Assembly: GCA_943736015.1 (NCBI GenBank)
Contig: OX031065.1
Location: forward strand, 26,426,427-26,490,426
Source: Tridacna crocea
Taxonomy: Eukaryota > Mollusca > Bivalvia > Cardiida > Cardiidae
DNA: 64,000 nt
Direction: 5' to 3'
A program made the translations under genes and the position numbers. The notes beneath the pieces are model-generated. The model did no database searches and was not told the origin of the DNA. It saw only the letters and a program-made list of their open reading frames with translations. Below, one piece after another: positions 2,813 to 36,142 of this stretch. Position 1 is the first letter of the stretch. Each line of letters begins with the position of its first letter.

Positions 2813-3415
2813 TTGCATCAAAACAAGAAGGCCATGATGGCCCCGAGTTGCTCTCTCCGGCCTGTCTGACCCAACAAGCCCAATTTCAAATCACTTCCGA
2901 GACATCAAACCAAACATTTTAATACACTTTCAAAATGTGGCCTCAAGAGTGTTGATAATTTTTTTCAAAAATTTATATCATAATCAGTGATCTACTTCTA
3001 TACCAAACATGAACTCTTTTCCAACTTATAGATATCATCAAAATGAACATTCTGTTGTTCTCATGACCTACATTTTGACCTAGTATATGCCATTTTCTGA
3101 CTGGTCCCATTTCATAAACATTCTGACTAACTTTCAGGTGCCACAGACTGAAAATGTGGCCTCTAGAGTATATACAAGGTTTTTCTAAGGTATGATCTAG
3201 AGACCAGTAGTTGTTGACCTGACATGACCTGTTTACAAAAATGGTCCAGATATCATCAAGACAAACATTCTGACCAAGTTTCATTAGTATCAGACTAAAA
3301 ATGTGGCCTTCAGATGATGCATAAGGTAACAGTTGACAAACCACAAATGCCAGACATAGCAAAATAAAAAAAAAAGTCCCTCACAAGCACTTTGTGCTCA
3401 GGTGACCTAATAAAT
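2813..3415. repeat. Dispersed repeat with 'AAAATGTGGCCT' units
   Basis: The block begins near ACAAGAAGGCCATGATGGCC and ends with GCACTTTGTGCTCAGGTGAC, a combination I associate with dispersed bivalve repeats. The phrase AAAATGTGGCCTC recurs near 2933, 3151 and 3299 with surrounding homology (CATCAAGACAAACATTCTGA), so the interior is a degenerate tandem repeat. A relative lies at 21.6-22.1 kb. The 129-codon minus-strand reading frame here is a by-product of the repeat. Confidence 0.65.
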
Positions 3416-3579
3416 ACAGGTAATCAGCATTTTATCCTCTTACAATCTCTTCTACTAACAGCAAAACAACTTCCATTTTTTGAGCTACATTAAATTTGTT
3501 GCCTGGGTGCAAATTAATACTGTCAGTATTTTCTCAAAATCTTGAGTATTTTGTTTTCTGGCAAACTGATGATCTGCCT

Positions 3580-3806
3580 TTACCCATTACCACACAATCC
3601 CTACTTTTAAAGACCCCGAGAAAGAAGCCTTTAGAAAACATTGTGGGAAAAGGAGAAAATGCTGGTTCCCAGCATTGTCTCCTTTTCCCACATTGTTTTC
3701 TACTCTTCACAAAACAAATTTCAAATTTTAGTAACATTTATTTTGTCATATGCAAATGCTTTCAATTTGGACCGGTCTACAATTTTGTCGTTTGGTAAAG
3801 AGTTAA
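3580..3806 (+). repeat. Pal-1 MITE, near full length
   Basis: Intact ends (TTACCCATTACCACACAATC; TTTGGTAAAGAGTTAA). The core is GCTGGTTCCCAGC, and one mismatch (ATTGTCTCC) has opened the stem. Confidence 0.9.
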
Positions 3807-6252: not shown

Positions 6253-6477
6253 TAACCTTTAACCACACAATCCCTACTTTTGACGACCCTGAGAAAGAAG
6301 CCTGTAGGAAACATTGTGAGAATAGGAGAAAATGCTGGTCACCAACATTTTCTCCCTTTTCAACCATGTTTTCTACCCTTCACAAAACAAATTTCAAATT
6401 TTCTGTCACTTTTATTTTGTCATCTTCAAATGCTTTCTTGAACAAACCTAAAATTTTGTTGTTTGGTAATGATTTAA
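6253..6477 (+). repeat. Pal-1 MITE, full length
   Basis: Arms CACACAATCCCTACTTTTGA and AAAATTTTGTTGTTTGGTAA flank a core with the dyad GCTGGTCACCAAC. The stem carries several unpaired changes. Confidence 0.85.
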
Positions 6478-6509
6478 AATGCAACATCCGAGTCCTTTAC
6501 TAATAATAA

Positions 6510-6719
6510 TCCTGAAGAAGGGCTTTGAAAACATTGCGAGAAAAGAAAATAATACAAGAAACAAGCATTTTCTCTTTTTCCCTCCATGTTTTCTGTACAT
6601 TTAAGGTAAAATCTCTTTGTTTAACCTGCATTTAATTTCTCCTCTGCGAATGTTTTCAATCCAAACAAAATTAAAATTCTGACATTTGGTATAGCACTAC
6701 AAGGGTTAAACATTTCTAG
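6510..6719 (+). repeat. Pal-1 MITE, 5' truncated
   Basis: The copy begins inside the left arm (CCTGAAGAAGGGCTTTGAAA) and ends at CAAGGGTTAA. The core is heavily mutated. Confidence 0.65.
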
Positions 6720-7071
6720 AAATGGTTTGCATTTCTAAAACACTATAATGGCTAACATAAATTCATTACGTATCTTAGTGCATCTTTATGGCTGCTTTCT
6801 TAAAAGGTTCTAATTGCTTGTGGTGCGCTGCGGAGATCTGTATAACATCATTAAAATACAATTCGGGCCTCCCAAGTGATATTAAGTAGATCATATGACC
6901 AATTAAAAGGCCCGAAAAACAATATAAAATTCTCATGTGTACTTTGCGAAATTAACTTTTATGTTATGTAATGGTGGAATCTTGAAGATACTTTTAACAA
7001 TTCAAGTCATTTGAATTTAATTAAATAGACTGGCTCCTATTCTGCCTTGTAATAATTTTATTTAACCCTTT
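6720..7071. other. No recognisable feature
   Basis: AT-rich sequence. A short inverted pair (TTCGGGCCT near 6862 and AGGCCCGAA near 6910) could form a hairpin with a loop of about 40 nt. Confidence 0.4.
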
Positions 7072-9880: not shown

Positions 9881-10508
9881 TTGAGGCAACCATAACCAAA
9901 CGGAGTTATTTTTTGCAAATTATAAAATCGCATGTAGACTTTACTTTCATACATTTTCCTATCATTCAATATTAAATTTGTTTTTGTCGTTCACAAAAAC
10001 TTACAGCTGACAAAAGAAGTTGTCTTGTCTTAATTTAACACTGGAACACATTCTTAATCAGTTGCAGTAAACATTATCTGAAAGAAAACCAAACAGGCTG
10101 TAACCAAATAAAACATGTCAAGAACCAGCAAACAAAACAAACAGTTCATTACAAGGGTTGTAGACAATAGACCTGCACAGCCCTTTTACTTTCGCCATAA
10201 AACTGTCAAATTCTTTGCTGATTGATCTACAGGTAATTGAATCTCCGCATACCAAGTCTCAATTTGTAGTGCGAAGTCTGTTGGACATCGCCAACCTCCA
10301 GTTCTCCAAAGACTAGACCATTATTACTGCACATGATGCAAACTATATTTCCAGACAATAACCAGGCTTAGCCCTGCAACTTCCACAAATACATCTTCGC
10401 AAGCCAAGGGTTACGATCCACTATGCTACTCTACCCTTGTTGGATTGAGCTTGATTTCGACAATCACCCGATACGCATTTTCATTGGTTGCAGCTAGCTA
10501 TAACTGCA

Positions 10509-10737
10509 TTAACCCATTACCACACAATCCTTACTTTTGACGCCCCCGAGAGAGAAGCCTTTTGAAAACACTGTAGGAAAAGGAGAAAATGCTGGTAACA
10601 AGCATTTTCTCCTTTTCCCAAAGTATTTTCTACCCTTCCCAGATCAAATTTCAATTTTTCAGTCACCTTTATTTTGTCGTCTGCAAATGCTTTCAATTTG
10701 AATCAGTCTAAAATTTTGTTGTGTGGTAAAGAGTTAA
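10509..10737 (+). repeat. Pal-1 MITE nested in MULE M1
   Basis: Full-length copy (TTAACCCATTACCACACAAT to TGTGGTAAAGAGTTAA). In the third MULE copy the leader runs without a Pal-1 at the matching place (ACTGCAT then the CATAGCATTTCATC region), so this insertion is younger than the MULE. Confidence 0.92.
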
Positions 10738-10802
10738 GTCGCTCGTAGCATTTCATCTTTGATAAAAATAGAACAGGGTCGCTATAAAAACAAAAGGTAA
10801 AC

Positions 10803-11097
10803 ATGAATACCTCCGTGGATGTGTACACGATCTGTAATGATTTATTACCAAGGAAAACGTAGATGAACAATATTTATATAACGTTTCAATGTGACCAATC
10901 CATTATCAGATGTTTTATGCTATATCCCAGCACCTGACCATGGAATGTCAAAGTATGTTTGTGGTTATTGCTTCATGTTGCATTATTGTATTCGTAAGCG
11001 GTTTGTAAAACGACATTTTATTGGCTATAAGAAATATGATGTAAAGGGAGATAATAAGCAGCATCCAATAGGGTGCATGTCACGGAAATCTTGAAAT
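10803..11097 (+). pseudogene. MULE-borne ORF remnant, CxxC-type N-terminal domain (second half)
   Basis: ATG at 10803 opens MNTSVDVYTICNDLLPRKT and meets a stop at codon 20. A second frame from about 10888 reads VTNPLSDVLCYIPAPDHGMS, then KYVCGYCFMLHYCI, to the stop ending at 11097. The two parts lie in different frames, so at least one frameshift has occurred. The motif order (C near the start, LxDVL, P, S-x-YVCGxCF) resembles a small zinc-binding domain built from two CxxC pairs. The MULE at 35.6 kb encodes the matching first half (CRVC, LCEVLGRVP). The domain family is not one I can name. It may be the first exon of the autonomous element's protein or a captured host exon. The remnant is not functional as it stands. 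Confidence 0.55.
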
Positions 11098-11166
11098 CGG
11101 GCTCGATCCACCAAGGCAAGATCCACGTCGTCATCGTAACCTTGGTTCGCGAAGATGCCACAGATA

Positions 11167-29915: not shown

Positions 29916-30164
29916 TGAAATAAAACTGCGTCATTGACGCAGGATTTGTGCGTCATGGAAAATCTTGTATTCATATTTATCTTCTGTTTTTATCCGAAAG
30001 GTTGTGACCTTGTTCTATTTTTATCAAAGATGAAATGCTATGAGCAATTTAATTCATGCAGTTAGAGCTAGCTGCAAGTATTGAAAATGTGTATGGGGGG
30101 GAATGTCGAAATCAAGCTTGATCCGCTAAGGGTAGAGTAGATTGTCACCCTTGGCTTGCGAAGA
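29916..30164 (-). mobile_element. MULE-like element, truncated copy (M2)
   Basis: On the minus strand, CATCTTCGCAAGCCAAGGG at 30164 is followed by the same leader as M1: TACTCTACCCTT, CAAGCTTGATTTCGAC, TTGCAGCTAGCT, TAGCATTTCATCTTTGAT, AAAAATAGAACA. It reaches an ATG (29974-29972) opening MNTRFSMTHKSC, comparable to MNTSVDVYTIC in M1. The rest is cut off at the H1 MITE. Confidence 0.8.
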
Positions 30165-30272
30165 TGTGTCAGTTAGAAATTGTATTCCCATGCTTACTTT
30201 GCGTATGGAATAATATGGGATATTTTAGGTTGGAGTAATGGGGGAATTGGCAATTTGTTTCTATGTGCAGCT

Positions 30273-35585: not shown

Positions 35586-35594
35586 CCCACAATG

Positions 35595-36133
35595 CATCTT
35601 CGCAAACCAAGGATACTAACTCCACTTTGTTCGTTACATACCTTGGCCGCTCGCCTCTTTAAAAATCGAAACTCCCGCTGCGCCACCTGTGGAATATCAT
35701 GAGTTGCGTAACCTTTGCTGATGTTAAAATTTCTGACAAATCAAAATGCTCGTAATAAAATTTGTTGGTTATGCATCAAATAAGGCTGCACTTTCGGATT
35801 CATCACACCAAAACAAAACAAATAGACGCAATCATTTGGCTATGGAACCCGTCCTAATACTTCACATAATTGATCGTAAACAAAAAAAAACTCATTAAAT
35901 ATCGATCGTCTACTCTTTTTTTGGCAAATTTCATCACAAACACGACAACTTTCATTTTTGATGGGCGCCGCCATTATTGTTTTCTGTTTTGCGAAAGATT
36001 TCTTGTTACAGTTGATTTGATTGGACGCGATGGGTTTTGATCGCATCCAATGAAAAGGCGCAGCGGGAGCTTCGATTTTTAAAGAGGCGAGCAGCCAAGG
36101 GTACTACCCTAGTATCCTTGGCTTGCAAAGATG
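35595..36133 (-). mobile_element. MULE-like TIR element with exact 9-bp TSD (copy M3)
   Basis: The ends CATCTTCGCAAACCAAGG and the complement of CCTTGGCTTGCAAAGATG extend inwards as an 85-bp inverted repeat (GCTCGCCTCTTTAAAAATCG, CTCCCGCTGCGCC on both arms). CCCACAATG at 35586-35594 and at 36134-36142 is an exact 9-bp duplication, the Mutator-superfamily signature. The interior encodes on the minus strand the first half of a zinc-binding-like domain. It is only distantly related to M1 beyond termini and domain. Confidence 0.9.
35840..35974 (-). CDS. MULE-borne short ORF with CxxC domain (first half)
   Basis: Start at 35974-35972, where a YY1-like CAATAATGGCGGC overlaps the ATG as in many animal promoters. 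The 44-codon product begins MAAPIKNESCRVCDEICQKK and continues SRRSIFNEFFFVYDQLCEVL, then GRVP and a stop. C10 and C13 form a CxxC pair. RSIF and L-x-EVL match in order the elements seen in M1 (NIYI, LSDVL), and M1 adds the downstream YVCGxCF that would complete a four-cysteine site. The frame could start 24 codons earlier (36046), but the YY1 overlap favours MAAP. The ORF ends where the domain's second half would begin, so this copy is truncated or lacks a following exon. No named family is assigned. Confidence 0.5.
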   Translation of the reverse strand: MAAPIKNESCRVCDEICQKKSRRSIFNEFFFVYDQLCEVLGRVP

Positions 36134-36142
36134 CCCACAATG

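Follow-up and report, generated by a model that had tools for sequence, protein, structure and literature searches.

Three short sequences with related ends, M1, M2 and M3, lie in a 64-kb stretch of the Tridacna crocea genome (the window), and M1 and M3 contain parts of a reading frame with paired cysteines. The question raised by this locus is how such a frame came to reside in a small transposon. The preliminary description of the window left two answers, namely a Pack-MULE-like element that mobilises a promoter together with a first exon, or an unrecognised N-terminal DNA-binding domain of a MULE. Both were examined by following the ends of the elements and the encoded peptide through the genome (1.05 Gb in 31 contigs).

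Copies in the window and across the genome

Allowing up to three mismatches, the terminal motif CATCTTYGCAARCCAAGG is found five times in the window, at 10392-10409 (+), 11140-11157 (-, one mismatch), 30149-30166 (-), 35595-35612 (+) and 36116-36133 (-), whereas 0.17 matches are expected in shuffled sequence. M1 and M3 have both ends and, as first described, are flanked by 9-bp target duplications (Table 1); the inverted arms of M3 measure 25 and 44 nt. The claim that all three copies share their ends failed for M2, which has a single end and no left end motif, and the borders proposed for this copy (29916-30164) had to be replaced by the approximate limits of the family match. A palindromic repeat with the core GAAAAGGAGAAAATGCTGG, found for example at 10577-10617 inside M1, adjoins TTAA and matches the window 42 times on the plus strand and 46 times in reverse complement (up to three mismatches), many of these matches being pairs formed by the arms of a single copy. 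This repeat is apparently a further miniature transposon of very high abundance.

Table 1. Elements of the family in the window, with their target duplications and domain remnants
Feature	Position	Strand	Basis
M1, M1-like miniature element, complete though decayed	10392..11157	+	Both ends; consensus identity 93-96% over two parts
M1 left 9-bp target duplication, CCACAAATA	10383..10391	.	Read from sequence
M1 right 9-bp target duplication, CCACAGATA, one mismatch to the left one	11158..11166	.	Read from sequence
Nested repeat within M1, borders approximate, TTAA near both edges	10513..10735	.	M1 matches consensus 1-121 and 345-766 only
M1 domain, decayed four-cysteine (ZAD-like), frameshifted, first cysteine gone, second CxxC kept	10803..10974	+	
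M2, M1-like fragment with one end, limited to the 5′ end and the leader	29967..30166	-	81% identity to M1-like consensus 1-199; one end motif
M3, complete M3-like miniature element, frame on minus strand	35595..36133	-	Ends, inverted arms; aligned with 37 other M3-like elements
M3 left 9-bp target duplication, CCCACAATG	35586..35594	.	Read from sequence
M3 right 9-bp target duplication, CCCACAATG, exact	36134..36142	.	Read from sequence
M3 ZAD-like domain remnant, second CxxC damaged	35810..35974	-	Open frame 35974-35843, then stop

In the whole genome, the terminal motif gave 7,087 matches (3472 + 3615) against a single one for its reversed control, and a longer, looser version of the motif gave 2247 + 2351 matches against none. 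The first eight loci chosen by the end motif each contained an inverted partner end at a distance of 179-558 bp, together with a 9-bp duplication that had no more than one mismatch. Duplications were counted over 66 distinct pairs of ends separated by 60-900 bp, which were taken from the window and from loci picked by the end motif or by the domain, and whose copies span 76-766 bp. The 9-bp duplication was exact in 29 of these pairs and had no more than one mismatch in 48, against 0.66 in shuffled flanks. Exact duplications of 8 and 10 bp were scarce (5 and 1), and the remaining 18 pairs had further mismatches or a shifted duplication. When the domain was the basis of selection (30 loci, L029-L058), both ends were present in 28, an exact 9-bp duplication in 20 and a duplication with at most one mismatch in 26. 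Three forms recur: an M1-like form of about 530-560 bp, an M3-like form of about 550 bp and an abundant 400-bp deletion form of the M1-like type, which lacks the domain core and has imperfect inverted arms of about 60-100 nt. One locus (L067, C14:18310000-18319999) contains two M3-like copies, at 3216-3765 and 6325-6874, in inverted orientation and with reverse-complementary flanks, as if one insertion had been carried by a larger inverted duplication.

The existence of a family with long terminal inverted repeats, 9-bp duplications and one common four-cysteine domain is well supported. Like MITEs, its members are short, present in high copy number and bounded by paired ends with target duplications, and they hold no transposase. 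They resemble the MULE superfamily in the length of the duplication (9 bp, within a range of 8-11) and in combining long, imperfect terminal inverted repeats with high-copy short derivatives devoid of transposase, but differ from it in that no linked transposase was found. We consider it rather probable that M1, M2 and M3 represent one very abundant non-autonomous DNA transposon group of the MITE type and of MULE kind, the MULE assignment being drawn from the duplication length and the form of the terminal repeats alone. MULEs and abundant MITEs are among the elements reported from bivalves (PMC10294476), and the end sequence of this element did not occur in any of the papers searched.

A four-cysteine domain and its resemblance to ZAD

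The peptides first quoted for the two copies are present, on the minus strand of M3 (35974-35843) and on the plus strand of M1 (frame 10882-11094). The whole domain is encoded by neither, and the M1 frame contains stops besides its frameshift and lost first cysteine. That the two parts outline one domain was borne out by copies elsewhere in the genome, which follow the pattern M-x6/8-C-R-[IV]-C ... LP-K ... RR-x-[IV]-F ... P-x-P ... Y-x-C-x2-C-F. The arrangement C-x2-C ... C-x2-C is retained in unmodified copies of two diverged subfamilies (L053; L071 and L072), and both CxxC pairs, with their four zinc-ligand-type cysteines, are intact in L003, L053, L059, L060, L071 and L072. The peptides of the two subfamilies reach an alignment score of 128 (2000 shuffles gave 52 at most) when a frameshift and a stop are bridged in the M1-like peptide. 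The domain occupies the same position in both, just inside the 5′ end, in DNA that has otherwise diverged. Absence of the cysteine motif from a family consensus, named beforehand as a refutation, was not observed for the M3-like consensus, which has the motif. To read it in the M1-like consensus (6 copies), one frameshift and one stop must be bridged, but it is intact in the single M1-like copies L071 and L072, which are unmodified and flanked by exact 9-bp duplications. The four-cysteine domain is real. In L071 and L072 it is followed on its 3′ side by GTAAGC, a splice-donor-like hexamer at which a first exon might end.

The proportion of intact copies depended on how the loci were picked. 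Protein searches of the genome with three queries gave 2501, 3400 and 5779 first-look candidates, the best 150 of each being scored, and the four-cysteine frame was open in 22 of the 30 loci selected in this way by the domain. In a frame-blind sample (L001-L028 and the window), only one of 12 domain-bearing copies, L003, was intact.

By hmmscan, L072 and L071 matched the ZAD profile (zf-AD, PF07776) at E 9.3e-4 (19.8 bits) and E 0.018, respectively, over profile positions 1-52 of 75. The curated cut-off of this profile is 28 bits, and no match exceeded it, the best values being 19.8 bits by hmmscan and 23.9 bits in the genome; the M3-like members gave no zf-AD match. A genome search with zf-AD at E 0.001 returned nothing, and 14 control genomes were equally silent. 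At E 10, 17 weak matches were obtained, of which 11 were copies of this element (nine from one domain-copy list and two from another). This result indicates that the profile retrieves the elements independently and does not reveal a clear host ZAD gene. The profile scores, all under the cut-off, suggest that the domain is weakly related to zf-AD. ZAD has been described as a domain with four invariant cysteines, a function in dimerisation and an N-terminal location (PMC9810180), and the ZAD of insect ZAD-ZNF proteins is likewise a short N-terminal domain of the form C-x2-C ... C-x2-C. The elements differ from these proteins in that their domain is located inside a transposon and in that the open frames among the domain copies listed (best 150 per query) reach at most 187 aa and, read unspliced, lack a C2H2 array. 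ZAD and other zinc-finger-associated domains have been described in relation to transposons (PMC10547256), and the literature search found no paper combining MULE, zf-AD and transposase.

Other candidate relatives were rejected. The M1 and M3 window peptides had no Pfam match at E 10, and the further Pfam names obtained (DHC_N2, OapA_N, zf-piccolo and SipA_VBS) were all below cut-off, at E 0.03 or worse. Sequence searches of the PDB gave chance-looking matches, the best of which (E 0.001) corresponded to residues 5-27 in ubiquitin-fusion chains and had no stretch that passed by itself, and none of the 30 viral-contig stretches that fit the peptide pattern is a relative.

Selection on the reading frame

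Among 38 M3-like elements, divergence from the consensus amounted to 0.054, 0.046 and 0.050 at the three codon positions and to 0.041 outside the frame, and pairs within this group differed by 8/6/7, 8/7/6 and 7/4/9 at the respective positions. There is no protein constraint among M3-like copies, as for copies that are moved passively. The two subfamilies were compared in six pairs, unmodified L071 or L072 against L053, L060 or L059. Third-position differences were about twice those at the first or second position (for instance 17/13/30 and 17/16/31), synonymous sites were saturated, dN was 0.39-0.47, and 24-26 of 50 residues were identical against 13.5-15.4 under random placement, a value reached in at most one of 1000 trials. 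With the edited M1-like consensus, 24 of 49 residues agreed against 14.0. L071 and L072 differ from each other by 4/4/7 (dN 0.075, dS 0.244) and share 43 of 50 residues against 39.0 at random, which 12 of 1000 trials reached; this weak constraint is compatible with separate derivation of the two copies from an evolving source. Constraint between the subfamilies together with neutrality among copies indicates that the frame was a real protein during divergence of the source lineages and later became passive cargo in the miniature elements.

Origin of the domain

The elements are probably non-autonomous derivatives of a MULE-type element, of which they would keep the 5′ end together with a first exon, or open reading frame, of ZAD-like type. 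Some transposase acting in trans would move them and produce the 9-bp duplications. The gene of the autonomous parent may begin with the ZAD-like domain, either as the N terminus of the transposase or as a separate accessory protein, and the domain may serve in dimerisation or DNA binding; the miniature copies would be internal-deletion derivatives of that parent. Of the two answers in the preliminary description, the N-terminal MULE domain fits better because two subfamilies that have diverged in their DNA carry the domain at one position and it is constrained as a protein between them, though a transposase fusion was not seen among the copies listed and the stretches read.

MULE transposase profiles gave 61 matches to PF10551, six to PF21056 and one to PF00872 in the genome. 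The PF10551 matches nearest to the domain copies listed (best 150 per query) were 119 kb, 48 kb and 95 kb away for the three lists. Longer copies with the same terminal repeats and a fused MULE transposase, which the preliminary description suggested looking for, were absent from these copies and from the stretches read. Nine 10-kb stretches surrounding domain copies that were unusual in their frames or ends contained no transposase-bearing element with these ends. As autonomous elements, L059-L067 were rejected for the short elements inside them (except L065 and L066, which showed one-sided ends only), and the long-frame copies L073-L075 for a 3′ end that follows after the usual distance. Since scoring covered the best 150 candidates for each query, out of thousands, the parent is perhaps present yet missed, or extinct. 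Downstream of the one-ended M3-like copy in L066 (C13), a 797-aa open frame begins at 6468; presumably it resembles the propeptide of a secreted metalloprotease.

The same genome contains MULEs with another N-terminal zinc-binding domain. L069 (C9:57328500-57334500) is a FLYWCH MULE whose frame measures 515 aa and whose inverted repeats, about 185 bp long, are made of GGACGTTTTGGCCA units; L070 is another, with a 432-aa frame. They were rejected as partners of the present family, because they have FLYWCH in place of the ZAD-like domain and other ends, the long inverted repeat of L069 being unlike those of M1 and M3. L069 is one of about twenty near-identical MULEs with 515-aa frames and equal PF10551 scores, which suggests recent activity of this type. 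Three further PF10551 matches with equal scores (C15:116668, C15:199768 and C30:6446) lie in open frames of 1237 aa.

Pack-MULE-like capture would mean that an ancestral element once took promoter and first exon from a host ZAD-like gene, before the subfamilies split, and has since spread them. We regard this as unlikely. The elements do hold a CCAAT-like leader, an ATG and a domain of first-exon size without transposase, resembling Pack-MULEs and Pack-TIRs as short elements with coding-type sequence between terminal repeats, and two related host exons, if captured, would likewise yield constraint between the subfamilies. However, a single ancient event followed by passive movement would not do so, and the diverged subfamilies with a domain constrained between them differ from such systems. 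A parental host gene is also lacking: the search for it gave no zf-AD match at E 0.001 or above the cut-off, with element copies swamping the protein searches and making up most of the weak matches, but this is not decisive because the control genomes were silent too. Further, a survey of 100 animal reference genomes reports no Pack-MULE (PMC8277862). Nor did the leader behave as a mobilised promoter. The YY1-like start described for M3, ATGGCGGC, recurs in the M3-like consensus and is absent from the M1-like one, where that start reads ATGAATACC; the inverted CCAAT motif is indeed in the leaders, but at or inside the terminal-repeat region and not as a separable captured promoter. From the terminal repeat to the ATG, the leader would rather be the promoter and 5′ UTR of the element itself.

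It is very unlikely that the 550-bp element is a tiny gene in its own right, encoding a stand-alone ZAD-like protein of 60-80 aa with a trans-acting role such as that of a transposition repressor or dimerisation poison. The many open frames among domain-picked loci and the weak constraint between L071 and L072 would agree with such a gene, but the M3-like elements show no codon-position bias, the frame-blind sample had a single intact copy and the core of the domain is gone from the abundant 400-bp form. A chance reading frame with a coincidental likeness between M1 and M3, for which the failure of the window peptides in Pfam and the PDB might speak, is extremely unlikely, being contradicted by the shuffle test, the codon test on unmodified copies, the intact copies in two subfamilies and the retrieval by the zf-AD profile.

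Under the preferred reading of a MULE-type source, the domain in the miniature elements is probably a leftover of the parent transposon. In the rows of a published table of MULE zinc fingers, PHD, FLYWCH, SWIM, C2H2, CCHC and RING types appear and ZAD does not (PMC6446971); if the domain belongs to a transposase gene, it would add a zinc-binding module to the known MULE repertoire and would provide ZAD, on whose origin outside arthropods the literature found has little to say, with a relative on the transposon side. A bolder and unlikely extension is that the ZAD-like domain is an integral, previously unrecognised module of MULE-class genes with an origin shared with arthropod ZAD, which may even have been recruited from a transposon. 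Should the parent never be found, the family would amount to ordinary MITEs that preserve an informative coding fossil. Whichever reading holds, thousands of copies with a leader and an ATG-started domain provide the genome with raw material for the exaptation of exons or promoters.
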